A DNA stretch of 48,265 nucleotides from an uncultured Lachnospiraceae bacterium. Lineage in GTDB: Bacteria > Bacillota > Clostridia > Lachnospirales > Lachnospiraceae. Below the pieces are notes generated by a model that worked only from the letters and a program-made list of their open reading frames with translations, was not told the DNA's origin and ran no database searches. Where the stretch lies: contig CADCIK010000009.1 in NCBI GenBank assembly GCA_902801415.1, positions 1-48,265 of the forward strand. Reading direction: 5' to 3'. Below, piece by piece: positions 5,971 to 46,400 of the stretch (positions are counted from its first letter, which is position 1; each line of letters starts with the position of its first letter). Made by a program: the position numbers and the translations under genes.

Positions 5971-6036
5971 TGAATAGCAAAAGCGAATAAGTCAGCATGG
6001 CCGCAATAATGTTAATGGGTGGAGGTAACAACTGAA

Positions 6037-8838
6037 ATGAAAGACCAGAAAAACCGTATGGTCAACGAGCGGGACTTCAGACAGGACCCGAATTACGTTG
6101 CTCCGGATCCGGAGAAGAAGAAGCTGATCCTTAAGCTTGGAACGATGATCACAGACCGCTATCTGGTCAAGTATTCAAGGACCATGAATACGGATGATCC
6201 CGAGTACTGGGCGCTGGATGAGGTCCTGACCAAGGAGGAGGCGAAGTTCCTTCTGAGCTTCAAGAAGACACGCGTGCCCTACGACATCGAGGATCTGGCC
6301 AAGATCAATAAGATGTCCTATGAGGACACGAAGAAGATGGTGGACCACCTTGTCTGGGTGGGTCTGATCGAGATGACCCGTGAGAATCCGGATCATCACA
6401 AGCAGTACAATGTGCCGATCTTCGTGCCCGGCTCCGCGGAATTCATGATGATGAATGATGAGCTTACGAAGCAGCATCCCAAACTGGCGACCTTCTTCAA
6501 CCTGATGACGCAGATGCCGCTGGAGAATGTGACGCCTATGATCCCTCCGGGAGGCGCCGGCGTCGGCATGCATGTCATCCCCGTCGAGAAAGCCATCGAG
6601 AGCGAGAACCTGTCTGCCAGCGTGGAACACATTTCCCACTGGCTGAGCAAGTATGACAAATATTCTGTCGGCCAGTGTACCTGCCGCAAGCAGCAGACCA
6701 TGCGCGGAGAGGGATCCGGTGAGATCAACGGCGAATTCTGCATGGGCATGGGCGATATGGCGGAGTACTGCGTAGACAGAGGTATGGGCCGTTACATCTC
6801 TTATGAGGAGGCGCTGGAGATCCTGAACAGGGCTGAGCGCCATGGCTTTGTTCATCAGATCACGAACATTGACGGCAGCGAGAAGATCGTGGCGATCTGC
6901 AACTGCGCGCCCGGCGTCTGCAATGCGCTGCGCACAAGCCAGCTTTACAATACGCCGAACATGTCCAGAAGCGCCTATCGCGCGCATGTGGACAAGACCA
7001 AATGCGTCGCCTGCGGCAAGTGCGTGGAAGTATGTCCCGTCGGCGCTGCCAAGCTCGGCCAGAAGCTGTGCACCAAGCAGGGAGAAGTGAAATATCCTCT
7101 CACACTGCTGCCGGATGAGACTGCGTGGAGCGCGGATAAATGGAATATCCATTACCGCGAGGACGCCAAGATCAACTGCTATGATACCGGTACGGCGCCT
7201 TGCAAGACCGCATGTCCCGCGCACCTTGCTGTACAGGGATATGTGAAGATGGCCAGCGAAGGCCGCTTCATGGATGCCCTGAAGCTGATCAAGCAGGACA
7301 ATCCTTTCCCGGCAGTCTGCGGTGCGATCTGCAACAGACGTTGCGAGGACGCCTGCACAAGAGGCACAGTGGATGATCCGATCGCCATCGACGAGATCAA
7401 GAAGTTCATCGCCGATCAGGAACTCCATGCCGATAAGAGATTCATTCCGATCTGTGAGAAGGACGACGGCGGAATGTGGGGACCTGACTACAAGATGGCT
7501 GTCATCGGTGCAGGCCCGGCCGGCATGACTGCGGCTTATTATCTGCGCACACGCGGGTATGACGTCACCGTGTTTGAGAAAGAGAGCCGTCCCGGCGGTA
7601 TGCTGATGAACGGAATTCCGTCCTTCCGCCTTGAAAAGGACGTCATTGAGGCGGAGATCGATGCGCTGCGCGAGATGGGCGTCGAGTTCAAGTGCGGCGT
7701 GGAAGTCGGCAAGGATGTCACGATCAAGGATCTCAAGAGAGAAGGCTACAAGGCTTTCTATCTGGCTATCGGCCTGCAGGGCGGCCGCAAGACCGGCGTG
7801 CCCGGCGAGGACGCGGAAGGCGTTGAGTCCGGCGTCAGCTTCCTTTCCAGAGTTAATCAGGATCACACGATCAGGCTGAGCGGCGATGTCGTCGTCATCG
7901 GCGGCGGAAATGTGGCTGTCGACGTTGCCCGCTCTGCAGCCCGCGTCACGGACGGCAAAGTTACCATGCTCTGCCTGGAGAGCGAGAGCGAGATGCCTGC
8001 GGCCCGCGATGAAGTGGAGGAAGCGATCGCAGAGGGCGTTACAGTCATGCATGGCTGGGGACCCAAAGAGATCCTGACAGAAGACGGCAAAGTGAAAGGC
8101 ATCGTCTTCAGAAAGTGCATCTCTGTATTTGATAAGCTCCATGTATTCGCGCCTAAGTTCCTCGAGGACAGCACGATCACGATCGAGTGCTCGAACGTTC
8201 TTGAGGCGATCGGCCAGTCTGCGCAGTGGGGCGATCTGTTGGAAGGCACGAACGTGAAACGCCACCTGAACGGCACAGTCAAGCACGATCCGCTCACCTT
8301 CGAGACCGGAGAGCCCGGCATCTTTGTCGGCGGAGATATCGCCCACGGCGCGCGCTTTGCCATTGACGCGATCGCGGACGGCAAGAAGGCCTGCGAGAGC
8401 ATGCACCGCTACGTACACCCCGGCCAGTCACAGACGATCGCACGCGACAAGCGGGAGTTTATCGAGCTGGATAAGGACAATATCGTCCTTGAATCTTTTG
8501 ACAACGCGAAGAGACAGGTGCCCGGCAGAAAGCCCGGCAATCCGGTCGGAACCTTCGCAGACCTGCGTCTGCCCTTCACAGAGGAGCAGATCAGGACCGA
8601 GGCGGCGAGATGCCTGGGATGCGGCGCGACAGTTGTTGACCTCAACCGCTGTATCGGATGCGGCTTGTGCACGACGCGCTGCGAGTTTGACGCGATCCAT
8701 CTGAGCCGGGATATCCCTGAAGCCTCCAACATGGTGCGCTGCGAGGACAAGCTCCCTGTGGTGGCCAAGTACGCGGCAGCCAGAGAGATGAAGATCCTCA
8801 GGAAGAAAGTAAAGAACGCGAAACCGAAGAAGAAATAA
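6037..8838 (+). CDS. Fe-S/FAD NAD(P)-dependent oxidoreductase (GltD-like) with N-terminal helix-turn-helix-like region
   Basis: A 933-residue cytosolic redox protein. In order: a winged-helix-like region (about 63-112); a cysteine-rich domain with CTC (214-216), C235, C245 and CNC (288-290); a ferredoxin motif with Cys 323, 326, 329 and 333; a GltD/dihydropyrimidine-dehydrogenase-type Fe-S segment (C381 to C440); an FAD Rossmann motif GAGPAG (491-496); an NAD(P) motif GGGNVAVD (622-629); and a C-terminal cluster motif with Cys 859, 862, 872, 875, 878 and 882. Such proteins move electrons between NAD(P)H and ferredoxin-like clusters; the partner is unknown. The ATG at 6037 is preferred over the GTG at 6019 because GGAGG lies 11 bases upstream. 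A full-length paralogue is at 20838-23699. The HypA-like gene follows after 12 bases. Confidence 0.88.
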   Translation: MKDQKNRMVNERDFRQDPNYVAPDPEKKKLILKLGTMITDRYLVKYSRTMNTDDPEYWALDEVLTKEEAKFLLSFKKTRVPYDIEDLAKINKMSYEDTKKMVDHLVWVGLIEMTRENPDHHKQYNVPIFVPGSAEFMMMNDELTKQHPKLATFFNLMTQMPLENVTPMIPPGGAGVGMHVIPVEKAIESENLSASVEHISHWLSKYDKYSVGQCTCRKQQTMRGEGSGEINGEFCMGMGDMAEYCVDRGMGRYISYEEALEILNRAERHGFVHQITNIDGSEKIVAICNCAPGVCNALRTSQLYNTPNMSRSAYRAHVDKTKCVACGKCVEVCPVGAAKLGQKLCTKQGEVKYPLTLLPDETAWSADKWNIHYREDAKINCYDTGTAPCKTACPAHLAVQGYVKMASEGRFMDALKLIKQDNPFPAVCGAICNRRCEDACTRGTVDDPIAIDEIKKFIADQELHADKRFIPICEKDDGGMWGPDYKMAVIGAGPAGMTAAYYLRTRGYDVTVFEKESRPGGMLMNGIPSFRLEKDVIEAEIDALREMGVEFKCGVEVGKDVTIKDLKREGYKAFYLAIGLQGGRKTGVPGEDAEGVESGVSFLSRVNQDHTIRLSGDVVVIGGGNVAVDVARSAARVTDGKVTMLCLESESEMPAARDEVEEAIAEGVTVMHGWGPKEILTEDGKVKGIVFRKCISVFDKLHVFAPKFLEDSTITIECSNVLEAIGQSAQWGDLLEGTNVKRHLNGTVKHDPLTFETGEPGIFVGGDIAHGARFAIDAIADGKKACESMHRYVHPGQSQTIARDKREFIELDKDNIVLESFDNAKRQVPGRKPGNPVGTFADLRLPFTEEQIRTEAARCLGCGATVVDLNRCIGCGLCTTRCEFDAIHLSRDIPEASNMVRCEDKLPVVAKYAAAREMKILRKKVKNAKPKKK

Positions 8839-8850
8839 GAGATCACGATC

Positions 8851-9288
8851 ATGCATGAAATGGGAATCATACTCCACATAGCGAAGATGCTGGATGAGAC
8901 AGCGGAGGAACAGCACATCACGAAGATCGGCTCGGTGACACTGGAGGTCGGCGAGGTCTCCGGCATTATGACCGATCTGTTCGTGGACTGCTGGAACTAT
9001 TTCAAGGGGAAGCATCCGGTTCTGGCGGAGTCGGAACTGCGGCTTGTGACGATCCCTGCCGTGACCTTCTGCGGAAACTGCGGAAAGACCTACGAGACGG
9101 TCAGGTACGGGAAAGAGTGCCCCTACTGTCACAGCGAGGAGACGTGGCTTGTGGACGGCAATCAATGTGTGATCAAGGAGATCGAGGCGGAGTGCGAGGA
9201 GGACGATCTCGAGGAGGAAGGCTTCGAAGAGGATCCCGATGACGATGACCTGGACTATCGCGCGGGAGACTTTGCGGAGAACGAGTGA
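8851..9288 (+). CDS. hypA: HypA-like nickel/zinc metallochaperone with acidic C-terminal extension
   Basis: HypA delivers nickel to [NiFe]-hydrogenase (and urease) precursors. The N terminus MHEMGI keeps the nickel-binding His2-Glu3, and the zinc-ribbon cysteines are present as CGNC (about 73-76) and CPYC (about 90-93). The core of about 115 residues is normal, but about 30 further residues are almost all Asp and Glu, ending DLDYRAGDFAENE. The gene starts 12 bases after the Fe-S oxidoreductase stop with only a weak Shine-Dalgarno, suggesting translational coupling. No hydrogenase, urease or other hyp gene is in the window. It may serve a different metal enzyme. Confidence 0.85.
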   Translation: MHEMGIILHIAKMLDETAEEQHITKIGSVTLEVGEVSGIMTDLFVDCWNYFKGKHPVLAESELRLVTIPAVTFCGNCGKTYETVRYGKECPYCHSEETWLVDGNQCVIKEIEAECEEDDLEEEGFEEDPDDDDLDYRAGDFAENE

Positions 9289-11288: not shown

Positions 11289-11999
11289 TTATTCAAACTG
11301 AAACCGCATTCTGAACACGGGCTTATCTTTCTCGCCATAAATGGAAAAGGAATCCTCCGAAGACGAGCATCCGACAGTCAGAACATCGCCGAGCTGCGCT
11401 TCTCCGATATGTTCGGAGGTGAGCTCGCGCAGGCTGCGGACACGAAACGCCTCAGGCATCCGGTCCATGGCCAGCTCATAGTATCTCGCGTTGTTCATAT
11501 GCCCGTTGAGATCGACATAACTGTAGGGCACAGTGAAATCAGATACAGACGCAGCAGCTGTCTTGCGCAGCCTTCCGGGAAGAGGCAGCTCATTTCCGGT
11601 GACGACCTCTTTGATATAGATGTCGTGCATCTCCGGAAAGACGATCCCGCGGGTATTCGCGTCGACCAGGACCCAGAGAGAAGCCGCGTCCATGAGCACC
11701 TTGCCCCTGGTATCCACGAGGCGGAAATAGCGGGGGAAATACAGGTGCATTGTTTTTCCGGGCCAGGACAGGAGAGTGATCTTCTCGTCATACACAGGCA
11801 TGCGGTGAAATATCACCCGGTACTGCGTCACAGCCCACAGAAGACCCTGGTCCAGCGTCTTGTCTCTTGTGACGCCCAGTTCGATGGTGTGCGCGATCGC
11901 GGCTTCCTGCAGGCGCGTAAAAAGCGCGGACAGGCGCAGTCTCTGCGACATATCCACATCACTGGACAGGATCTGAAAGTCTTGTCTGTACATTCTCAT
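11289..11999 (-). CDS. Acyl-ACP thioesterase (FatA/FatB family)
   Basis: Hydrolyses acyl-ACP to a free fatty acid and holo-ACP. A 236-residue double hot-dog protein: the first hot dog includes AAIAHTIELG and TQYRVIFHRMPVYDE, the second the catalytic region YVDLNGHMNNARYYE with the Asn and His of the family active site. Bacterial Clostridia members have this length. The ATG at 11999 follows AAAGGAGCTGCC; the frame stays open 21 bases further up. It is the last gene of a three-gene minus-strand operon after an AMP ligase and an ACP. That context suggests it releases acyl groups from this dedicated ACP rather than from the housekeeping one. Confidence 0.9.
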   Translation of the reverse strand: MRMYRQDFQILSSDVDMSQRLRLSALFTRLQEAAIAHTIELGVTRDKTLDQGLLWAVTQYRVIFHRMPVYDEKITLLSWPGKTMHLYFPRYFRLVDTRGKVLMDAASLWVLVDANTRGIVFPEMHDIYIKEVVTGNELPLPGRLRKTAAASVSDFTVPYSYVDLNGHMNNARYYELAMDRMPEAFRVRSLRELTSEHIGEAQLGDVLTVGCSSSEDSFSIYGEKDKPVFRMRFQFE

Positions 12000-12114
12000 G
12001 GCAGCTCCTTTACAACACATGCCGGATCACCGCCGCCCAAACATCGGGCACAACCGCGCTGTTCACACGCCGTGCGCGATCGCACCGCTCATGCGGCAAC
12101 GCTATTCGCAGCGC

Positions 12115-12369
12115 TCAGAACCTGCGATTGATCCGTTTCTCGAAGGCGTTTACAACATCTCCGAAAGTGGACATTTTGGACCACTGCCTCTGCGGGATCT
12201 TGACGTCGAACTTCGCTTCAAGCCGGCAGATGATCAGCGTAAAGCCCATGGAATCGATCGCGGTGTCTGTATTAATGACGGTATCTTCATAAATCGGCGT
12301 CCCCTCCATATCAGGCACGCACTCATAAATCACTTCCTTGCAGATCTCTGCAATCTGATTTCTATCCAT
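12115..12369 (-). CDS. Acyl carrier protein
   Basis: An 84-residue carrier protein with the phosphopantetheine attachment motif DSMGFTLI (Ser 40) following TDTAI, and the usual helix pattern. It differs from housekeeping AcpP (DSL motif, strongly acidic) in having DSMG, a Cys-rich first helix (EICKEVIYECVPD) and a basic C terminus (KRINRRF). It therefore looks like a specialised carrier for the adjacent ligase and thioesterase. Start ATG after GAAAGGAATG. It lies about 100 bases from the ligase stop and about 115 bases from the thioesterase start, with no terminator in either gap. Confidence 0.9.
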   Translation of the reverse strand: MDRNQIAEICKEVIYECVPDMEGTPIYEDTVINTDTAIDSMGFTLIICRLEAKFDVKIPQRQWSKMSTFGDVVNAFEKRINRRF

Positions 12370-12469
12370 GCTGAAACATTCCTTTCAAAAAAGGCGGGTG
12401 TATTGTTACGTTCATTATATCTGCAATTTCAGATTCTGTCATCCGGACTCATTCCGGTTCGATCGTATG

Positions 12470-14086
12470 TCAGCCTGGAAGCTGCCTTGCAAGTTCCCAC
12501 CGCTTCACTTTACCGGTTGCCGTGCGCGGCAGCGGCTGGTCCGTGAACAGGACTGCGCTGACCTGCTGTCCGCGGGGAAGCTCTGCCATGACAGGACGGA
12601 TCGCGCCAAGAACAAAAGCGCGGGCCTTGTCCGCAGCAGCGCTGCTTTCACCGGCTGATCCGGCGTCCGGATCAACAAGCAGCAGGACCGGCCTTCCATT
12701 CTTTTCAAGGACCGCGAAGTCCCGTCCGGGAAGTACGGCGGCAATGCGTGACTCGTATTCGGGAAGAAAGAGCTTGGTGCCGTCATGGAGGACAAGGATC
12801 TCTTTCTTGCGCCCGATAATGTGGAGCTGCCCGTCCTCGTCCCATCGGCCCAGGTCGCCGGTATAGAGAACGCCGTCCTTTTTTAGAACCGCAGCTGTGT
12901 CTTCGGGCTGTTTGTAATAGCCCTTCATCATGCAGCTCGCCCCGGTGACCAGGATCTCACCGTCGTCGGCCAGGGTGACCGTGTTCTCGGGGCAGATCTC
13001 CAATGCATATGGGTCAAAAGACTGTGCGCCTTCTAAAGCCCTGCCGCAGGCATCAGGACCGGCGAAGGCAGGACCGCCGGGATCAGGTGCGCAGGCAGGA
13101 TCGCCGGGATCAGGTGTGCAGACAGGATTGACGCGGTATTCCGGCGGAACACTGATCGCGACGCCGGAACTGGTTTCCGTGAGACCGTAACCGAAGCTGA
13201 CTGAAACGCCCTTTGCCGCAGCTGCCGTAAGGAGCGCCGGAGGGCAGTCGCCGGCACCGATCAGGATCAGCCTGAGTTCTTCGTTCAGCAGGTTGTGCTG
13301 CAGAAGAAAACCCAGCAGCATGGGAACGGCTGAGAGAGCGGTCGGCCTGAAAAAGGACAGGTCCTGCGTATAGTAACGCGCGCCTCGTCCCAGAGCTACT
13401 GCCGCACCGCACTGCATTCCCCAGAGCATGCCGCAGACAAATCCGAATACGTGATTCAGCGGAAGCATACAGAGGAGCGTATCCTCGCAGGAGAGCGGCA
13501 GTTTACAGCTTCCGTTATAGGCTGCGGCCATAAGACTTGCATCCGTCAGGACGACAGCCTTGCTGCTGGAAGTCGTGCCGGAAGTGAAGAAAAGTATGGG
13601 ATGCTCATCCGGAGTCCTGATCTGCGCGGGATGCAGAGATCGCGCATCTGTCATGTCGCGCTGCGGCGAAAGTCCTTCAGTCAGACAGCCCTGCAGCTCC
13701 TCGATGAGGTCGTCGTCACTTCCCCAGAGACAGTCTATATCCGTCTGCCGGATCTGCGCGGCAAGGAGGTCTTCTGAGGCGTTCTCATCCAGAAGAACGA
13801 CCTGCAGGCTGGCCAGCACAGCGGCGAAGATGGTCAGGACGCAGGAGAGGGATCCGTCGCACAGAACGCCCAGGCAGGTGCCCGCTCCGAACTCTTCGGC
13901 GAGGTCGTCTTTTCGCTCCATCACTGCTTCGGCAAAGGCGCTGCGGCTCAGGGCGGCAGCAGCGCCGCTCTTTTCATACAGGACAGCCGTCCGGTCAGGA
14001 TCCTCATGGGAAAACGCGTTCAGAAGATCCATAAAACCGGTCCGCTTTGTCTGGACTATCAGCTTTTTTTCTCTCTCTGCATTCAT
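12470..14086 (-). CDS. AMP-dependent acyl-CoA/acyl-ACP synthetase (acyl-activating ligase)
   Basis: Activates a carboxylic acid as acyl-AMP and transfers it to a thiol, probably the phosphopantetheine of the adjacent ACP. A 538-residue ANL-superfamily protein: P-loop-like FFTSGTTSSSK near residue 165, MLPLNHVFGF near 208, YGLTETSSG near 300, TGDLGRWDEDGQLHIIGRKKE near 415, and the C-terminal Lys in RTATGKVKRWEL near 526. Between YGLTETSSG and the hinge is an unusual Pro/Gly/Asp/Ala-rich insert (about 315-345) coded by a 27-bp tandem repeat. It is the first gene of the operon ligase-ACP-thioesterase and divergent from the isomerase operon. RBS GGAGGCGG precedes ATG. Chain-length preference is not visible. 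Confidence 0.88.
   Translation of the reverse strand: MNAEREKKLIVQTKRTGFMDLLNAFSHEDPDRTAVLYEKSGAAAALSRSAFAEAVMERKDDLAEEFGAGTCLGVLCDGSLSCVLTIFAAVLASLQVVLLDENASEDLLAAQIRQTDIDCLWGSDDDLIEELQGCLTEGLSPQRDMTDARSLHPAQIRTPDEHPILFFTSGTTSSSKAVVLTDASLMAAAYNGSCKLPLSCEDTLLCMLPLNHVFGFVCGMLWGMQCGAAVALGRGARYYTQDLSFFRPTALSAVPMLLGFLLQHNLLNEELRLILIGAGDCPPALLTAAAAKGVSVSFGYGLTETSSGVAISVPPEYRVNPVCTPDPGDPACAPDPGGPAFAGPDACGRALEGAQSFDPYALEICPENTVTLADDGEILVTGASCMMKGYYKQPEDTAAVLKKDGVLYTGDLGRWDEDGQLHIIGRKKEILVLHDGTKLFLPEYESRIAAVLPGRDFAVLEKNGRPVLLLVDPDAGSAGESSAAADKARAFVLGAIRPVMAELPRGQQVSAVLFTDQPLPRTATGKVKRWELARQLPG
13064..13133. repeat. 27-bp tandem repeat inside the ligase gene
   Basis: Units at 13064-13090 and 13091-13117 differ at only a few positions (core CGCCGGGATCAGGTG), with a third partial unit after. 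Each encodes nine residues of PDPGxPAxA type, so the coding frame is kept. Confidence 0.8.
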
Positions 14087-14135
14087 AACACACCGCCTCC
14101 AAAGATTAGTTTGCGGGTCTGTGATCCATCTGTTT

Positions 14136-14144
14136 TCAGTATAT
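14136..14144 (-). promoter_or_regulatory. Possible -10 element for the ligase operon
   Basis: On the minus strand TATACT occurs about 50 bases before the ligase start, within GATATACTG. No good -35 is seen at the right distance, so the call is weak. Confidence 0.25.
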
Positions 14145-14230
14145 CATTTACGCGCAGGCGGGGCATGAAAAGATGTGGAAAAGAGCGCTGTTTTGGCCCC
14201 TTTTAGGGACGGTGCGGAGCGACTTCTTTA

Positions 14231-14258
14231 TTCATTTTCGGGGTAGATAGTGTATACT
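14231..14258 (+). promoter_or_regulatory. Possible promoter of the fatty-acid isomerase operon
   Basis: TATACT at 14253-14258, 16 bases after TTCATT (14231-14236), about 60 bases before the isomerase start codon. The -10 lies inside the small palindrome GTATAC. The 232-base divergent region 14087-14318 is relatively AT-rich near both starts and could hold a shared operator. Confidence 0.4.
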
Positions 14259-14318
14259 GGATACAGAGGATTTTTCTTTAAATTTACAGATAAAACGTAA
14301 AATATACGGGAGGGTATC

Positions 14319-15713
14319 ATGGACAAAAACATCAGAATCTGCATCATCGGAGGAGGCCCCGCAGGCCTTTCCGCAGGTATGTATCTGGAGCAGAAAGGAT
14401 ACGAGAATTATACGATCCTTGAGAAGAACGACCGCGTCGGCGGAAAGTGCTGGTCTCCGTATTACAACGGCCGCCGCTATGAGATGGGAGCCATCATGGG
14501 CGTTCCGTCTTATTACGCAGTACACGACGTAGAGGAATTCTGCGGCATCACGCACGACGGCCCGCAGCTGAACCGCAACTACAAGAACAGGCTCGGCCAG
14601 GTCATCGAGCCCTTTGAGCCCAAGAAGAACATCCGCAAGATCCCCCGTCTCCTCAAGATGAAGAGACAGCTCAAGAAGTTCGGCGAGCTCCTGGAGACCA
14701 AGTACAAAGGATACGATATCAACGGTCACCGCGGCGTTGCGGAAGGACGTTACGAGGGATTTTCCGCTGCAAGTGCCAAAAGAGAGCCGGTCAGCGGCGT
14801 CAATCCCAACCTCAAGGACCTGGCGCTTCCTTTCAAGAAATTCTGTGAGATCAACGGCGTTGAGCTGATCCAGGACATCTGGATCGGACCCTTCACTTCC
14901 TTCGGCTATGGATATTTTGACGAGATCCCTGCAGCATACGTTCTCAAGTACCTTGACTTCCAGACCTGCATGAACTTCGTCAAGATCAATCTCTGGACCT
15001 GGAAGGAAGGCACCCAGTTCATCTGGGAGTCCCTGAACGAGCACCTGAAGAATCCGGCCCGCCTGAACAGTAAGATCGACAAGGTCGAGAGAAAAGACGG
15101 AAAAGTCTATGTGACCGTAAACGGCGAAGTGGAAGAGTATGACAAAGTCATCGTCACTTCTCCTCTGTACGTGCCGCAGAAAGAGAACCGCGACGACGGA
15201 CTGGTCGGCATGGTGGACTACTTTGACGCGCGCGAAGACGAGAAGAAGCTCTTCTGCCAGATCGAGTATGAGCGCTATGACGTACTGGCTGTCGAGACCA
15301 AGCCGGAAGATCATCCCGAGATTTCCTACTATGTATTCGACAATATGATCCCCAAGAGACTGGGACATCTGATGGTCTACTATCGCCGCTGGAGAGACAC
15401 GGTCGATCAGGTCATCACGACCTATGCGCTGCGCAAGCATAAGAGATCCGAGGAAGTCCCTTACGACAAGTGCCGCAAGATGGTCCTCAAGGATCTGGAG
15501 ACCATGGGCAACCCCGCTTCCAACGTGGTCAACGAGTGGAGCGTCTACTACTTCCCGCACGTATTCACAAACGCCTACAAGAACGGCTGGTATGACAAGG
15601 TCGAGGCTATGCAGGGCAAGTATGACACCTACTATGCGGGCGAGATCATGAGCTTCGGCGACATGGACGAGACCTGCGAGTACTCCCGCGAACTGGTCGA
15701 GAGATTCTTCTGA
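14319..15713 (+). CDS. Polyenoic fatty acid (linoleate) isomerase-like FAD enzyme
   Basis: A 464-residue flavoprotein of the amine-oxidase fold. From memory, it resembles the Cutibacterium acnes polyenoic fatty acid isomerase (PAI), which converts linoleate to trans-10,cis-12 conjugated linoleate, along nearly its whole length. Shared-looking stretches are GGKCWSPYYNGRRYEMGAIM with GVPSY, PFTSFGYGYFDEIPAAYVLK, LWTWKEGTQ, RLGHLMVYYRRW, YYFPHV and GWYDKVEAMQGKYDTYYAGE with IMSFG. The FAD site GGGPAG is at residues 11-16. Relative to PAI there appears to be an extra segment near residues 137-160. It is first in an operon with two further redox genes. RBS GGGAGGG lies 7 bases before ATG. Amine oxidase or protoporphyrinogen oxidase are less likely given the C-terminal match. 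Confidence 0.85.
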   Translation: MDKNIRICIIGGGPAGLSAGMYLEQKGYENYTILEKNDRVGGKCWSPYYNGRRYEMGAIMGVPSYYAVHDVEEFCGITHDGPQLNRNYKNRLGQVIEPFEPKKNIRKIPRLLKMKRQLKKFGELLETKYKGYDINGHRGVAEGRYEGFSAASAKREPVSGVNPNLKDLALPFKKFCEINGVELIQDIWIGPFTSFGYGYFDEIPAAYVLKYLDFQTCMNFVKINLWTWKEGTQFIWESLNEHLKNPARLNSKIDKVERKDGKVYVTVNGEVEEYDKVIVTSPLYVPQKENRDDGLVGMVDYFDAREDEKKLFCQIEYERYDVLAVETKPEDHPEISYYVFDNMIPKRLGHLMVYYRRWRDTVDQVITTYALRKHKRSEEVPYDKCRKMVLKDLETMGNPASNVVNEWSVYYFPHVFTNAYKNGWYDKVEAMQGKYDTYYAGEIMSFGDMDETCEYSRELVERFF

Positions 15714-15762
15714 CCGGCTTTCTGAAGACGCAGACCGGCCATGAGCACCATAGGAGAAGACT

Positions 15763-17298
15763 ATGAAATTTTACAAAGATCATTATGATGTGATCGTGAT
15801 CGGAGGGGCCCTGGCGGGCCTCTCCTCAGCGCTTATGCTGGCGGACAAGGGACTGGATGTGCTGGTCCTGGAGCGCCACAACCTGCCCGGCGGCATTGCG
15901 ACGAGCTTTGTTCGCGGCGGCATTGAGATCGAAGCGGCGCTGCACGAGATGATGTCTATAGGACCCGGCGACAACCGCCTCAAAGTGGGTAAGTTCTTCG
16001 ATGACATGGGTCTGGATATTGAGTGGCTGCAGGTCCCGGAGTGCTACCACGCAAGCCTTCCGGGCCTGGAAGTGACCCTGCATCCCGGACTTGAGACGTT
16101 CTCCCGCGAGATCGACGAGCAGGTGCCGGGCACCTACGACAAAGTATTGAAGCTCCTTAAGCTCTGCGACACGGTCTTCAACAGTGTCAATGAGCTCTCC
16201 ATTCACCCCATGAGCAAACCGCAAATGCTCATGAAGCACGAGGCCTTCGTCAAGACGGCGGGATACTCCACGAAGGAGGTCCTTGACACCTTCGACCTGC
16301 CTCAGAAGGCACTGGATCTGCTGGCTCCTTATTGGATCTATGTCGGCAGCGGCTTCTCAGACCTGCCCTTCACGATCTATTCCGTGCTGATGGCGGACTA
16401 TGTGGGCTACGGCTCCATGATCCCCAGAAAACTCAGCCACGAGATGAGCCTGAAGATGGCGGAGCGCGCCGAAGAGCTGGGCGTACAGATCGAGTACCGC
16501 CAGCACGTGGACAAGATCCTGGTGAAGAACGGCAGAGCATACGGCGTGCGCACCGCGCGCGGCGACGAGATCTACTCGGACTATGTCATCTCCGCCGCAT
16601 ACCCGAACAAGGTCTACACCAGCATGATCGAGCCCCTCAGCGAGGTGCCTGAAGAAGCCACCAAGATGGTCAACGGGCGGCGCCTGTCGCTGACCGCGTT
16701 CTCGGTCATCCTGATCCTGGACAAGCCGGCGGAAGAGCTGAACATCAAGGATTACAGCATTTTCCGCGGAGACACCATGGACACGGATGCGCTCTATGAG
16801 AACCTGGCGGGCCTTGGCCCTTACAGATACCTGACCTGCATCTGCCACAATTACGGAAATCCCGGCGTGACGCCGGAGGGCACCTGCTCCTTCAGCGTGA
16901 CGGTCCTGCCCCGCGTGGACGGCTGGAAGACCGTGAAGGCGGAGGACTATGACCGGGTCAAACACGAAGTGGCGAAGCAGCTGATCGACGACATGTCGGA
17001 ATACTTCGGCGTGAACCTTCTCGACCACGTGCTGGAGTGTGTCATCGAGACTCCTATGACCATCGCGCACTACACAGGCGCCTGGAACGGATGCATATAC
17101 GGCTATGCGCACACCATGGAGGATCACATCGTGGCGAGACTGCAGACAGCTGAAGAAGAGAAGTTTATCGACCGGCTGGAGTTTGCAGGCGCCCACGCGA
17201 TCTCCGGAGACGGCATGGGACCGGCCGTGACCAACGGACGAAAAGCTGCCAAAAACGTGCTGGATGATATAGCAGCGAGAAAGGAGGCAGATCGATGA
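15763..17298 (+). CDS. CrtI/retinol-saturase-like FAD-dependent oxidoreductase
   Basis: A 511-residue flavoprotein of the phytoene-desaturase family, which also holds retinol saturases and carotenoid isomerases. These enzymes desaturate, saturate or isomerise carbon-carbon double bonds of lipids. The N-terminal dinucleotide motif is GGALAGLSSALMLADKG (about 14-30), followed by LPGGIATSF; the C-terminal FAD segment is SGDGMGPAVTNGRKAA near residue 490. No signal peptide or carotenoid genes are present, so a carotenoid role is unlikely. It lies between the isomerase-like gene (49 bases) and the 2Fe-2S reductase (4-base overlap). Context suggests it acts on the isomerised fatty acid, perhaps reducing one double bond; this is inference. 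Confidence 0.82.
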   Translation: MKFYKDHYDVIVIGGALAGLSSALMLADKGLDVLVLERHNLPGGIATSFVRGGIEIEAALHEMMSIGPGDNRLKVGKFFDDMGLDIEWLQVPECYHASLPGLEVTLHPGLETFSREIDEQVPGTYDKVLKLLKLCDTVFNSVNELSIHPMSKPQMLMKHEAFVKTAGYSTKEVLDTFDLPQKALDLLAPYWIYVGSGFSDLPFTIYSVLMADYVGYGSMIPRKLSHEMSLKMAERAEELGVQIEYRQHVDKILVKNGRAYGVRTARGDEIYSDYVISAAYPNKVYTSMIEPLSEVPEEATKMVNGRRLSLTAFSVILILDKPAEELNIKDYSIFRGDTMDTDALYENLAGLGPYRYLTCICHNYGNPGVTPEGTCSFSVTVLPRVDGWKTVKAEDYDRVKHEVAKQLIDDMSEYFGVNLLDHVLECVIETPMTIAHYTGAWNGCIYGYAHTMEDHIVARLQTAEEEKFIDRLEFAGAHAISGDGMGPAVTNGRKAAKNVLDDIAARKEADR

Positions 17299-18485
17299 AA
17301 GTTAAGAATTTCCTTACCGATGTCGGCGGCGCCTCCCGCGTGACTAAAGCGCGCCTGAAAGCCTTCCATTCAGCGTCTCCCGCGCTCACGGATGTGGACC
17401 CCATCGGGAACGTCTCCCGCGAGTGGCATCCCGGCCCGATCGAGCTGGTGGTCACGAAGATCACACCTGCCTGCAAGACGGCCAAGACCATCCGCTTCGA
17501 GCGCACCGACGGCAAAAAACTGCCCTTCTTCTATGCGGGGCAGTACATTGTGCTTGATTTCAGGATCGGGAAGAGCCTGATCTCCAGGCCTTACTCCATT
17601 TCTTCCGCGCCTTATCAGGCGAGAGCGGAGAAACCTTTTGTGGAGATCACGGTCAGAAAATCCAAGGGCGACGGCTTCATCTGCGACTATGTCAATGACG
17701 AGCTGAAGGTCGGCGATATTTTGACAGGAACCATGGGACTTGGACAGTTCTACTATGAGCCGCTTCGCGATGCGAAGCACGTAGTGGCACTGGCGGGCGG
17801 CGTCGGCATTACGCCTTTCGCATCCATGGCCAAGGAAGTGGTCAACGGAACTCTCGACATCGATCTGACCATCCTCTACGGATCGGCTTCTTCGGACGAC
17901 ATTGTCATGAAGGAGGAGCTGGATGCGCTGGAAGGAGCCTGCGACAAGCTGCATATCGTGCATGTGCTCAGCGGCGACGAGCCCGGCTGGACCGGCGAAA
18001 AGGGATTCCTCACAGCGGAGCTGATCAGGAAATACTCTGCGGAAGATACCACGTACTTTATCTGCGGACCGCAGGTCATGTACACGTTCCTGCGCAAAGA
18101 GGTGGCCAAACTGGACGTTCCCGCAAGGCGCGTGCGCTTTGAGGTCTTCGGCCAGGCCAAAGATATCGCTATGTATGAGGGATTCCCGACGGAACTGCGT
18201 CATGAGAGTTTCACCATTACAGTGGTAAGAGGCATCAGTGAAGTGGAGATCCCCGCGAAGGCGACAGAAAGCATTGTGGTTGCGCTCGAGCGCGCCGGGA
18301 TCCGGATCGAGACCGGCTGCCGCAGCGGCGAATGCGGATTCTGCAGGACCAAGGTCATTTCCGGCGATTACTTCGTCTGCCCTGAAGGCGACGGAAGAAG
18401 GGCGGCGGACAAGGAATTCAATTACGTGCATGCATGTGCAGCGTATCCGCTGTCGGATATGAAGATCAAGATCCCGATCATGTGA
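17295..18485 (+). CDS. FAD/NAD(P) reductase with C-terminal 2Fe-2S ferredoxin domain
   Basis: A 396-residue single-chain electron-transfer protein. After about 45 unassigned residues comes a ferredoxin-reductase-type FAD domain (RPYSISSAP near 97), an NAD(P) domain (AGGVGITPF near 170, YFICGP near 254), and a plant-type 2Fe-2S domain with CRSGECGFC (Cys 341, 346, 349) and a fourth Cys near 380 (HACAAYP). The architecture matches reductases of oxygenases and the Hcp reductase. Its ATG overlaps the stop of the preceding gene (ATGA), so the two are translationally coupled and it is probably the electron donor of that flavoprotein. No oxygenase or hcp gene is nearby. Confidence 0.88.
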   Translation: MKVKNFLTDVGGASRVTKARLKAFHSASPALTDVDPIGNVSREWHPGPIELVVTKITPACKTAKTIRFERTDGKKLPFFYAGQYIVLDFRIGKSLISRPYSISSAPYQARAEKPFVEITVRKSKGDGFICDYVNDELKVGDILTGTMGLGQFYYEPLRDAKHVVALAGGVGITPFASMAKEVVNGTLDIDLTILYGSASSDDIVMKEELDALEGACDKLHIVHVLSGDEPGWTGEKGFLTAELIRKYSAEDTTYFICGPQVMYTFLRKEVAKLDVPARRVRFEVFGQAKDIAMYEGFPTELRHESFTITVVRGISEVEIPAKATESIVVALERAGIRIETGCRSGECGFCRTKVISGDYFVCPEGDGRRAADKEFNYVHACAAYPLSDMKIKIPIM

Positions 18486-40232: not shown

Positions 40233-40438
40233 ATTATACGGATTTCTGAACAAAACAGTGTCAAAATAGTATGAAAACGAGTTGAAATCATACAATATAT
40301 TGTGCAAAATATTGAGTATACACATATAAATAATTACTTTTTGTAGCATTTCAGACGGTAAATCAAATGGGAATCAGCAGTGAAACGAGACGGTCTCCTG
40401 CGAGGTCAGACTGTATGCGTTTCGGATTGGAGGGAGCA

Positions 40439-43400
40439 GTGAGAAGGAGAATACTGGCAGCATTGTTGGCAGGCATCATGGTCTTTTCACAGACTGGAAC
40501 AGCGTTCGCGGCAGAGAATGCTGCGGCCGCGGATACAGCTGTGGAAGCAGCTGCGGAGGAAGAGCCGGAGGCAGAAGCTGCGGCTGTAGAGGAACCGGAG
40601 GAGCCGGAAGGAGAGAAAGAGCCGGAAGTCGCGCCGGAAGAAGGCGCAGAGAACGAAGACACTTCGGCAGATGAAATTCAGGACGAAGTGACCACGGATG
40701 ATGAAGAACCCGGGGACACTGTAGTGGATGAGTCTGAGGAGACTGCCGCAGAGGAAGAGTCTGTGGAAGAGGCGGACGAGGGCATCACTGAGGAAGCAGC
40801 GGCCGAGACGGATGAAACCGTCGAAGAGCCGGAAGAGGAAGTGGCGGCCAAAGAGTCTAAGAAGGAAGAGGACTATTCTATTGAGATCTGTGAGTGGGAG
40901 AGCGCAGGTCTCCTGTTTGAAGACGGGGAGTGGTCCTGTCCTATAGCATTGGACGGCTTTGACGGTGTGCAGTACGACCTGCAGCCTTCAGTGTCCGACC
41001 ACAACGGCCCGGAAAACGCGGACACGGAGGACGCGTGCCGGATCGAGGGCGAGCCCGGCAGTGAGCAGCTGATCATCGATGGACGACGCCTTAAGGATAC
41101 AGGCATCGACTGGGTGCGAGTCCGCGTGGAAGGCTTTGTGGAGGGCGAGTCAGTCGCACAGTGCGAGAGGGATTTTGAAGTCCGCAAGGTCAGAGAAGAC
41201 TATGATCGGGAGTGGGACCGCACTATGATCCCCGGCTGGGAAGGAGTCATCAGCGGATCCTATGGCGTGCATGTTGAGAACAGTGAACATCCGGACGGCT
41301 ATGACACGGGATACAGTGTTATCGACGTCAGCATCGTGAGCGACGAAGCCTGGGGAGATGGAGACGAAGAAGTCATTGTGGACTTTCACCGTGATCAAAA
41401 GAACGATGACGACTATTGGTGGTATTACCGTGTCGGTCATCCCGGCGAAGCGACGCTGAAAGTCACCTATGAGGATATCCATGGGGAGATGCAGAGCTAC
41501 GAGTTTACGCTCCATGTCAAAGGGGATGTATACACGGTATCTCTGTCCAGCGACGGAAGGATGAGCGCCTTCCCGGGAGGCGAGATCGAACTCAAAGCCA
41601 CCGGCAGCCACGAGTATCTGGATGAAAACGGTGACTACCACCGGACTTCGGACGGCGTGGATTATCAATGGTTCATCGAGGAAGGGGAAGAGATCGCACA
41701 GATCGATGTCGACCAGAATGACCATTCGAGAGCGACCCTCCGCTTTAATACAAGCGGGGACAACAGTCAGGACCAGCTGATCTGGCTTGGCCTGCGTGTA
41801 CTCGATGAAGACGGAAATGAAACGGAGGGCTATTGCCGGACCGGCTTCTGGAGGAGCAGCGATTACATTGATGTATATCCCATGGAGCTTCCCAGAGACC
41901 TGGAAGTGGGCGAGAGCCTGGAGAATATAGAGTATGAAGTGCGCCACTATGTATACGGTGTGGATGGCTATGACGTGATCAATGATCCGGATCTGGAGTT
42001 CAGCTGGAACTATGACGAGAATGCGATCAGCATCACAGAGAACAGGAACGGGCAAGCTGTAGAGATCGGAAACGGACAGACCGGCACCGGCAATACTTTT
42101 ACGGTTACCAGAAAGAGAGAGTGGGGCACACATTACGAGGTACACGTAAGCATTGACGGAGAGGACCATTGGAACAACTACCTGCTTGAAAATCTGGATT
42201 ACAATATCTGGTTTGAACAGCACGACCTGAATCTGTATAACGATGATCCGGAGATTCCTGCGCTTGAACTGCACACGGATAATCTCGGCGATAACTGGCA
42301 GGACAGAATGGATCTGAAGATCCAGGCGGGTCACTGGGATCGTGATCATTGGGGAGAAATGCTCGAAGAGGGGGACTACACGGTAGATATCGAAGGCGAT
42401 ACAGTGTGGGTGGCGCTCTCCGATGCGTATCTGCAATCACTGGATGATTACGAGGATATCCGCGTCGTTGCGGAGCTCTATGCCAAGGATGCGGAACAGA
42501 TCGATGACAACCGGATCCGCGAGACAGATGCCTGGTTCCATATCCGGCAGGCGAAAGAAGAGTATGATCGTGAATGGGATCGCACCATGCTGCCCGGCTG
42601 GGACGGCCGAGTCGATGGATTCTACAGAGTGCATATTGAGAACAGCGAAAATCCGGACGGACGCGATGAGGATTATTCCGTCACCAATGTTGAAGTGATC
42701 AGCGATGATCCCGCGCCCGGTGAAAAAGGAGACGTTGTTGTCGAATTCCGCCATGAGCAAAACGATGACGATCATTGGTGGTACTACCGTGTCGGTCATC
42801 GCGGTGAGGCGACACTGAGAGTCACCTATGAGGACATTCACGGCCAGACACAGAGCTATGAATTCAAGCTGTATGTCGGAGATGACGTATACAACGTCTG
42901 GATCGAAAGCGAAGGCAACAAGGGAAATGCCCTTCCCGGAGATGAGATCCGGCTCTTCGCCAGAGGAAATCATGAATACAGGGATGAAAACGGAGATCAG
43001 CACGGTGATGATGAAGGTCTCGGCTATGTCTGGGATTTTGAATACGGGAATGAATACGCGGATCTCGAAGTCAGCGCTGATCCTTCAGTTGCAGTTTTGC
43101 GATTCAAGGATCTCCCTGATGGATGGGACGACATAAACGAAAACGTAAGAGTTTGTGTCCGCGTCCTCGACGAAGAAGGCCATGAGACGGAAGGTTATGA
43201 TTCCAGAGAATTCTGGGTCCGCACAGACTATACAGAAATGTGGCCGCTGGAAATTGACAAGGGTCTGGATGTCGGCGCAAGCATTGAGAACATTCCGTTT
43301 GAAGTTCGCCGGTATACGTTTGGTGACGATGAGTATGAGGTGATCGATGATCTCTACGACGTCACTTATGAGTGGCACTTTGACCAGAATGCGCTCAGCA

Positions 43401-46400
43401 TTACGGAAATGAGAGACGGAAACCCGGTCGAGATCGGAGACGGCGATACTTCGGGCAGCCCCGTCACCATTACCCGGAAGGGAAATTGGCATACGGATTT
43501 CAACGTTTGTGCTAAATGGCATGAAAACGGTGAATACAGAGACACTTGGGGAAACTACTACTTCGATGATAAGAATTATGATTTCTGGTACGAGATCGAC
43601 GGCAATGACACGATCTACTCGGATGGTCTCAGGGAATTCGGCTTCAACCTGGACAACCTGGAAGGCGTGGACTTTGAACTAGTACCGGAGGTCGGTACCG
43701 GACGTTGGAATGAGGAGAGCGGATTTGAGCATCCTATCACACAGGATCAGGGATGGAGTTATGACGCTGACAAACATACCATCACATTCTCCGGCGAGAC
43801 GTTGTATGAACAGGGAATCGACCGCCTTGAAACCCGAATCTCTCTCAGAATCGGCGGCGTCGAGGTGGCTGATGAGTGGCGCGGTTTCGACGTGCGGGAG
43901 GCCCGGTTTGATTTCCATGGGGAATTTGATGATGCAGTCCTTTTCGTCGATGACGAGTGGTATGTGAGCAAGAATGGAAATGTATATCTGGAGACAACAT
44001 TGCTTCCGGATGGGGCAGAAGGGGAATATACAATCCGTGAGATTCAGTATGAATCAGGGCAGGATGAGTTTGATACCCGTGACGCAGTCGATGTGATCGA
44101 AGAAGAGAACGGCTGGCTGTTCAAGGCGGTGCGCGGCGGCGAGCTTAACGTGCACATAATAGCGAATGTAAATGGAGGCGAGAGTGGTCCTGGAATAAAC
44201 TATTACTATGAAGATGATTTCCGTATCATCGTAGGCGGCAGAAGGATCAACATGGGCCTGGAAACCGAAACGGGCAGTGACAGGCTTCAGCCCGGCGGTT
44301 CGATCCGTGTATTCCCGCAGATCTATGCGGAAGAATACGACTGGAATACCGGAGATCGCTACGGTATAGATACTTCGGATTACCAAGTGCGCTATGAAGT
44401 GCGCTGCAACCGCATCGATCAGAGGATCATCGATGAGCAGTTTGACGGGGACTTCGATCGGGCGACGGAGCGCGGCGTATTCTGGGACTATGCAGAGGAT
44501 CCTGAGAGCCGTTCGATCATCCTGTTTACCGAAGAAAACGCCGACAATATGGAACTGGAGATCGAGGCATATCTGATCGATCCCGACAGCGGTGAGGAAT
44601 GCGCGAGAGCATATAGAAGAGTCTTTGTGAACAGTCTCATTTATGCAGTCGAGTTCTATGAGGAAGGCGGCGCAGAGCCGTATACATGGGACAAAGAGCT
44701 TCCGCCCGGTGCAGAAGTGACGCTGGTCCCCAGACTCATGAAGAAGGAGGGCGACGGAGCGTTTGAACCCGTTGAGGGAACAGATGTGACCTATCGAATG
44801 GGCTGGTATACCGGAGGCGATCCGGAACATGATCCCGCCCACATCATTGTCAGCGATGGAGGCAGAGAGCTGCGTCCGAATGATGAGATTTCCGGACCGG
44901 TCACGATCAAGAGAAACGTAGAATGGAGCTTTAACTTTAGCGTTGAAGCAGAGTGGGAAGCAGAAGACGGCTGGAGGCAGAATGTCAGCAAAAACCTGAT
45001 CTGTGACGATGTTAATTATAGTGATGGATTTATCTTCGACAGTGATCGCGGTGATAGCCATTACACCTGGTATTACACAAATGAAGCGATTGACGTAGTT
45101 CCCGACAGGGCGAGACTGGACGCTTTGGAAGCCCAGGGATATCCTGTTGAGACAACTGTAGAAGCAGGTTTCCTTGAAAACGGCGAGATCCGGCCGATCA
45201 CCGGATATGATATCAGCAGCGTTTTCAATCCGCAGACAGGACTCCACGTGGACGAAGCGCAAATGCAGGATCTTTTTGAGGCGCTACGCTACCAGGCAAA
45301 TGAAGATGGCGATACCTGGGGCAGAATCTCACTGCGGATTCATTCTGAACTGAACGGTGTAGTTCTTGTCGATGAACTGCTGCGGATCACGATCACTAAG
45401 CCTTACCTGGAGATCACCGGACTGAGGATGGATATGGGCGTCGGACAGACCCAGACCTTTGCGGGAGGCAATGCCGAGCTCTATCTGGAAGACTCCGCAC
45501 ATGATACCGGCGACTACTATGAAGGCGGCTCGTATTTTGACATCAATATCACCAATATCGCGCTCAAGAACGCAGGTGATGAGGAGTTCCTGGAAATTAA
45601 ACAGAACGGTGCTGATTGGAGTCTGAAAGCGCTGAAAAAGACAGAGAACAGAGTTCCGGTCATCTTCACGTTTACCGGAGGCCCGGAGGGATATGATACA
45701 TTCGAAGCCTATATTGCGATCGCGGACGGCGTATTTGACCTTGAGCTTCGCAACAGCAAAGGTGAGAGAGTAGAAAATCTGGATGTCTTGCTCGGCGGCA
45801 CGGAAAAACTGGTTCCGTATGTGACGTATACAGAGTTCGATGAAAACGGCCCCACCGTTATTGAACTCCCTGAGCTTGCCACAGAAGGAATTCCATATTG
45901 CTATGCGACTGATGAATATTACGATGACAACGTGATCGATATGAGTGGAGATCTGGACATCACCGGTCTCCGCAGAGGAAATACGGATCTGGAAATCGTG
46001 GTTACGATCTATGATGGAAGCGATCCCGAGATGGACGTCTATGAATTATGGTCGCATGTGAATGTCAATGTCTATGTCAGCATGGCCGTTCTGAATCTGC
46101 CTGAAAACACGACAGTATATGCGATTCCCGGACTTACGTACACAGCTGATGAGATCGGCCAGAAGGTCGGCGGAACGCTCACTGTCTACTCCATGAAGCA
46201 GCCCGACGGCGCTGAATATCCGATCACAGACTACAGGCTTGAGGAAGTGATCGGAGGAGATGGAAAGCTGACGCTCACAGACGGTGACGAAAGGGCTTAC
46301 ACGACTCTCAATGTAGCCTCTGACGCCCCGCTGACAGAGTCAACGCTAATCCTTGGAGCGCGCGAGTCCTTCGGAAACAGAGCAAGCGCCGGATTGAAAG

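Follow-up and report, generated by a model that had tools for sequence, protein, structure and literature searches.

What chemistry is served by a divergent block of six genes in an uncultured Lachnospiraceae bacterium? The block lies on contig CADCIK010000009.1 of GenBank assembly GCA_902801415.1 (positions 1 to 48,265, the whole stretch analysed, hereafter the window), and consists of a minus-strand operon, LIG-ACP-TE (acyl ligase, acyl carrier protein and thioesterase, together the trio), arranged divergently from a plus-strand operon, PAI-RETSAT-FNR (polyunsaturated fatty acid isomerase, saturase-like flavoprotein and reductase). A first-pass annotation, made from the letters alone, had placed a ligase, an ACP, a thioesterase, a PAI-like isomerase and an FAD/NAD/2Fe-2S reductase among six genes at 11,289 to 18,485; all six open reading frames (ORFs) are found there on the strands it gave, and domain searches and motifs bear out these families. 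The conserved set, found in uncultured gut Clostridia mainly of ruminant origin, seems designed to move the double bonds of fatty acids from dietary plants and afterwards to saturate them. From the families and their linkage we consider it reasonably probable that it encodes a dedicated biohydrogenation pathway detoxifying dietary polyunsaturated fatty acids (PUFA). The enzyme families are known, and PAI in metagenome-assembled genomes (MAGs) from the rumen has been published; their union in one conserved pathway seems to be new.

The isomerase matches PDB entry 2b9w, which we take to be the PAI of Cutibacterium acnes, with an E-value of 3e-133, the next distinct PDB sequence reaching 4e-10 (phmmer). 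The homology is whole-length, with 53% identity (220 of 416 aligned residues), and includes an FAD dinucleotide motif, GGGPAG, at residue 11. An alignment of 23 rows (the window protein and relatives) has 150 invariant columns, 140 of which can be aligned to 2b9w and 117 of which are identical there; R88, F168 and F193 of 2b9w, presumably its substrate-site residues, are all kept in the window protein, as R86, F195 and F220. The first-pass annotation had left room for a grouping with amine oxidases, and indeed the PDB file names the 2b9w molecule “putative aminooxidase” and both PAI and RETSAT match the Pfam family PF01593 (Amino_oxidase); PAI groups with 2b9w, and the gap to the next sequence rules out a flavin amine oxidase. 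By homology, then, the window protein is a relative of the C. acnes fatty-acid isomerase and not an amine oxidase. The natural prediction for its product, and the most likely one, is the trans-10,cis-12 isomer, product specificity not being readable from sequence. The window PAI differs from that of C. acnes, whose gene neighbourhood was not compared, in being clustered with saturase-like, reductase, ligase, ACP and thioesterase genes.

This clustering is conserved. Scanning 84,980 species genomes with patterns cut from the window’s own PAI gave 233 stretches encoding a PAI relative, and the best 80 of the 233 were used, so that the sample leans to close relatives; 26 of these 80 loci were excluded from the gene-order count for short flanks. 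All six genes occur in the window’s order and strands in 50 of the 54 loci whose sequence extends 3.5 kb to either side of PAI, which is the co-occurrence in other genomes that the first-pass annotation had proposed looking for. Family genomes with other arrangements that keep all six genes have the trio first on one strand (L097, L099) or PAI first (L101), and a locus from another family in the class (L107/G497, PAI at 52-60% identity) has the six genes in the window’s order. By record name the 80 loci comprise 17 Lachnospiraceae, 15 Oscillospiraceae, 5 from other families and 43 Bacillota for which no family is given; a ruminant host is named in 26 of the 80 titles, and a further 36 carry the label RUG, which we take to mean “rumen uncultured genome.” Two MAGs labelled Sphaerochaetaceae (Spirochaetota; L044, L054) also contain the cluster, by transfer or wrong binning. 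Outside the family PAI was found in 3 of 291 genomes of a class sample and 6 of 299 of a phylum sample, the window genome being counted in each, and the other five phylum-sample matches are relatives at 30-34% identity; on plasmids there were two matches only, at 25-28% identity.

Co-occurrence in whole genomes gives the same picture. Among 250 genera of the family, close PAI (at least 65% identity) occurs in 6, RETSAT (at least 50%) in 7 and LIG in 7, and all 6 PAI genomes have both partners; without the window’s own genome (249 genera) the counts are 5, 6 and 6, with an overlap of 5 for each partner (Fisher 8e-10 each, in tests that treat genera as independent). The pattern is broken by G075, with RETSAT and no PAI, and by G094, with LIG at 33% identity. 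LIG was also present in 48 of 50 PAI genomes examined; these were hand-picked from the 80 and include seven loci with no LIG match in the fetched stretch (L009, L011, L026, L034, L056, L066, L067), and whether a LIG outside the stretch shares the contig of PAI was worked out for part of the genomes. In the two PAI genomes without LIG (L026, L034) the contigs end just before PAI. A chance adjacency of two unrelated operons would fit the genomes in which the operons lie apart (L056, L066 and G130, the last with PAI-RETSAT-FNR and LIG-ACP-TE both present on separate contigs), but it is hardly credible beside the 50 canonical loci, the 48 LIG-bearing genomes and the Fisher tests, and the persistence of co-occurrence despite changed order and unlinked copies (the latter in one of the five other close-PAI genomes) rules it out. 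The link between the operons, at first drawn from position, is thus borne out by conserved order and by co-occurrence in the family sample.

Features of the cluster and its neighbours in the window.
Feature	Positions	Strand	Evidence
TE: acyl-ACP thioesterase, hot-dog fold, probably an extra paralogue	11289-12020	-	PF01643 80 bits (cut-off 23.7), PF20791 39.6 bits
ACP: divergent acyl carrier protein	12115-12369	-	carrier serine in DSM, residue 39
LIG: AMP-binding acyl ligase, MenE/FadD-like, AMP-forming	12470-14086	-	PF00501 127.5 bits; motifs TSGTT, PRTATGK
Divergent intergenic region, 232 bp	14087-14318	.	separates starts of both operons
PAI: polyunsaturated fatty acid double-bond isomerase, FAD	14319-15713	+	PDB 2b9w E 3e-133
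RETSAT: CrtI/CrtISO/RetSat-superfamily flavoprotein, proposed conjugated-diene saturase	15763-17298	+	TIGR02730 103.8 bits
FNR: FAD/NAD(P)/2Fe-2S reductase, proposed RETSAT electron donor	17295-18485	+	PF00970, PF00175, PF00111
GltD2: GltD-like FeS flavoprotein, 956 residues	20838-23708	-	Pfam/NCBIfam profiles
GltD1: GltD2 paralogue, 64% over residues 13-948	6019-8838	+	Pfam/NCBIfam profiles
HypA-like metallochaperone adjoining GltD1	8851-9288	+	PF01155 97.3 bits

The six genes evolve as three modules, PAI, RETSAT-FNR and LIG-ACP-TE, as shown by the size of the correlations between their distance matrices (incomplete and short proteins omitted, n = 35-78 per gene pair). The correlation is highest for RETSAT-FNR (r = 0.93, 77 loci), reaches 0.73, 0.78 and 0.82 within LIG-ACP-TE, and for PAI is 0.36 with RETSAT, 0.43 with LIG, 0.55 with TE and 0.60 with ACP. 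RETSAT itself occurs as two types, at 71-96% and 50-62% identity to the window copy, and on quick trees of 76 loci its type changes at least 9 times on the PAI tree (15-27 times in 200 shuffles) and 2 times on the FNR tree. We conclude that RETSAT and FNR have been exchanged as a unit while being kept beside PAI, the behaviour expected of an enzyme with its own electron donor that is tied to one pathway.

The first-pass annotation had called RETSAT retinol-saturase-like; its superfamily, CrtI/CrtISO/RetSat, stands, and the specific retinol saturase label goes beyond the evidence. An AlphaFold model (pLDDT 90, pTM 0.88) has as its closest solved structure among the matches listed the gamma-carotene desaturase 4rep (TM 0.81/0.84), and the other 49 structures listed, mostly amine and nicotine oxidases, have TM 0.56-0.65 by query length. 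Profiles TIGR02730 (residues 8-499) and TIGR02734 (residues 10-508) match at full length, and no RetSat model or structure was seen among the matches listed. On this modelled structure RETSAT is a member of the CrtI/CrtISO superfamily with the carotene-desaturase/CrtISO fold; it resembles known members in fold and full-length profile, and differs from them in that it reaches the cut-off of none of the 25 NCBIfam models listed (of 75 matched) and travels with FNR. RETSAT and FNR overlap by 4 bp at their junction, and FNR combines FAD_binding_6, NAD_binding_1 and Fer2 domains, with cluster cysteines 342, 347, 350 and 381 (C-x4-C-x2-C-xn-C) invariant across 9 sequences and a score below the cut-off of the PaaE equivalog TIGR02160 (127.9 vs 420.8 bits).

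RETSAT could instead be a redox-neutral, CrtISO-like cis/trans isomerase whose FAD is kept reduced by FNR, in which case the cluster would yield trans or trans,trans conjugated acids and no saturation. CrtISO requires reduced flavin, and the best NCBIfam model for RETSAT is the carotenoid isomerase TIGR02730; the score, however, is 103.8 bits against an equivalog cut-off of 586.9, the nearest solved fold is a carotene desaturase, and so tightly co-evolving a reductase suits a stoichiometric supply of electrons. We judge this alternative quite unlikely. In G075 two RETSAT genes occur without a PAI match, one with HypB, GltD and HypA (L136) and one with FNR (L137), and RETSAT of this genome may reduce another substrate.

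The minus-strand trio looks specialised, given a canonical ACP elsewhere in the genome and the two or three thioesterases of other close-PAI genomes. ACP has no Pfam match, and the 11 NCBIfam ACP models that it matches are all below cut-off, the housekeeping model TIGR00517 among them (29.7 vs 70.45 bits). A canonical ACP elsewhere in the same genome scores 76.8 bits, against 28.9 for the cluster copy, which rules the latter out as the housekeeping carrier. TE matches PDB 2ess (E 2.7e-22) and has the DxNxHxNN motif at residue 170, as DLNGHMNN. The TE family is present in 229 of 250 family genomes, and a tally by hand found at least two copies in all five other close-PAI genomes (2-3 each) vs 35 of 244 others, which favours TE as an extra paralogue; TE is thus probably extra and specialised, although a housekeeping role would fit its own genome (86% complete), in which the cluster TE is the sole PF01643 match. 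The window LIG, at 538 residues against a median of 455, has a proline-rich insert at residues ~314-357 that is seemingly absent in most relatives, whose matches break at ~313 and 357.

We propose the following pathway. PAI would shift a double bond of free linoleic or linolenic acid by hydride transfer through FAD and so produce a conjugated diene; the trans-10,cis-12 isomer, the C. acnes product, is the most likely. LIG would then use ATP to load the fatty acid onto the cluster ACP, and RETSAT would turn the conjugated diene into a monoene by reduction (trans-10-18:1 after a trans-10 first step), its FAD receiving electrons that FNR takes from NAD(P)H and passes on by way of its 2Fe-2S centre. 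Finally, TE would free the product from ACP for export. We infer the substrates, the order of the first two steps, the regiospecificity, the direction of RETSAT, the role in detoxification and the need for ACP. Detoxification is the likely benefit by analogy, as biohydrogenation is reported to serve survival of B. fibrisolvens in PUFA (PMC2836310). A more far-reaching version, which we hold to be doubtful, is that PUFA are loaded on the dedicated ACP, isomerised and saturated there by the NAD(P)H-driven flavoproteins and released, and that this tethered route, in many uncultured lineages of Clostridia, supplies most of the trans-10 fatty acids of the rumen and thereby underlies milk-fat depression induced by diet.

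The cluster might also make an unusual lipid or polyene of the bacterium’s own, with no involvement of dietary PUFA, since clusters of that kind hold ligase, ACP, thioesterase and desaturase-like enzymes. This is very improbable: the known PAI reaction requires a methylene-interrupted diene, the 12 window proteins that were classified include no ketosynthase, ketoreductase or dehydratase, and the spread is patchy and biased to ruminants (in 80 loci that are the closest relatives of one query).

Several observations weigh against the proposed pathway. A ligase and a thioesterase form a futile cycle if no step intervenes, C. acnes PAI acts on free acids, which leaves a requirement for ACP unproven, and the GltD and HypA neighbours described below are unexplained by the scheme. 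In L008 the trio is found some 5-8 kb upstream and on the opposite strand; PAI has no trio beside it in L056 and L066, whose LIG is elsewhere in the genome; and L075, which has LIG and ACP beside PAI and TE on PAI’s other side, is without RETSAT or FNR in 10 kb on each side. In five family genomes with distant PAI (53-59%) LIG is absent at E 1e-30 and the only RETSAT is a weak one (34%, G234); PAI can thus occur without its partners, which counts against a strict need for the other genes. Conversely, G075 carries its two RETSAT genes with no PAI. All 21 gene pairs beat 999 permutations in the distance-matrix comparison, as shared ancestry alone would give, so that the modules are told apart only by the size of r.

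Some of these points would be accommodated if isomerisation and reduction took place on free fatty acids and LIG-ACP-TE were a separate salvage or membrane-lipid module, handling the product or guarding the membrane. The activity of C. acnes PAI and the distant-PAI genomes without LIG are as this would predict, and so is a trio whose genes have evolved together but separately from PAI and from RETSAT-FNR, and that lies elsewhere in G130. LIG is, however, nearly absent without PAI (1 of 239 PAI-less family genomes at E 1e-30, G094 at 33%), and we regard a separate module as unlikely.

The proposed pathway of isomerisation followed by saturation on ACP has partial counterparts in known systems. 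The CLA-HY/DH/DC/ER system of Lactiplantibacillus plantarum is also reported to saturate linoleate through several enzymes (PMC13365329), but by hydration, oxidation and an enone reductase; in Pfam searches limited to the six genes, no match was to an MCRA hydratase, SDR, decarboxylase or enone reductase family. Linoleate isomerase and conjugated linoleic acid (CLA) reductase of Butyrivibrio likewise isomerise and then reduce, as detoxification (PMC2836310), but by a trans-11 route. A 2018 genome paper reported that a linoleate isomerase gene was not found in Butyrivibrio (PMC6249431), and LAI-type genes have since been assigned to that genus (PMC10019597). In the same 2023 study, 7 of 228 rumen MAGs were reported to carry a PAI homologue at 40% identity or more, namely 2 Lachnospiraceae, 1 Oscillospiraceae and 4 unclassified; its account of them speaks of the isomerase alone, and the word “reductase” is absent from its main text (PMC10019597). 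Searches of an open-access library, which lacks most subscription papers, gave no description of the six-gene cluster, of its saturating partner or of the trio.

A pathway of this kind bears on the origin of trans-10 fatty acids in the rumen. Of 28 rumen species tested, only C. acnes is reported to have made them (PMC7339423), so that cultured rumen hydrogenators fail to account for these fatty acids; its cultures stopped at the conjugated acid, and the authors considered C. acnes unlikely to be the sole or predominant producer in vivo (PMC7339423). The cluster provides a marker set and testable enzymes for the isomerising and saturating steps in uncultured Clostridia, and could reveal which microbes produce the milk-fat-lowering fats of the rumen. 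As trans-10,cis-12 CLA has been tied to low milk fat (PMC10019597), herds could be monitored for the cluster genes, and the enzymes would be usable for making defined conjugated fatty acids. We suggest that bench work is deserved, as the genes allow the long-standing question of which bacteria of the rumen form trans-10 fatty acids and reduce them to be tested directly.

The first-pass annotation was right on families and on the operon link, and missed the GltD-like FeS flavoproteins, HypA, the modular evolution and the published PAI of rumen MAGs. In the window GltD1 and HypA lie left of the cluster and GltD2 lies to its right, beyond an SNF2-like gene and on the opposite strand. A GltD2 homologue directly follows FNR on the same strand in 25 of the 54 loci with FNR and 6 kb downstream (26 of the 80 excluded), and some GltD occurs in 28 of the 37 loci with 7 kb on both sides (43 excluded), against ~2% expected from copy number. 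HypA is present in 21 of the same 37, and both it and HypB-like GTPases are frequent companions of GltD. Of 250 family genomes, 51 encode the GltD2 N-terminal domain, including all 11 with any PAI vs 40 of 239 others; this domain has 6 invariant cysteines ahead of the ferredoxin motif, and its model (pLDDT 69) has no PDB match at E <=0.001, the best being a MarR-type regulator at 0.022. The GltD-like flavoprotein may feed or balance electrons. HypA and HypB-like GTPases (Pfam-based in L136, by eye elsewhere) lie near PAI or RETSAT in L075, L102, L108 and L136, in the last three together with GltD.

In four stretches PAI stands next to GltD1 with no LIG, ACP, TE, RETSAT or FNR (L102, L104 and L106, with PAI at ~50-59%, and L108, at 31%), and distant PAI and GltD1 may perhaps represent an older partnership. 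The divergent intergenic region was also searched for a shared operator, and none was recognised by eye (9 of 69 extracted sequences) or by consensus scan, which gave 6 promoter-like sites vs 4.0 in shuffles and 10 terminator-like sites vs 6.3. Elsewhere in the window, an ORF of 2350 aa occupies positions 40,367-47,419.

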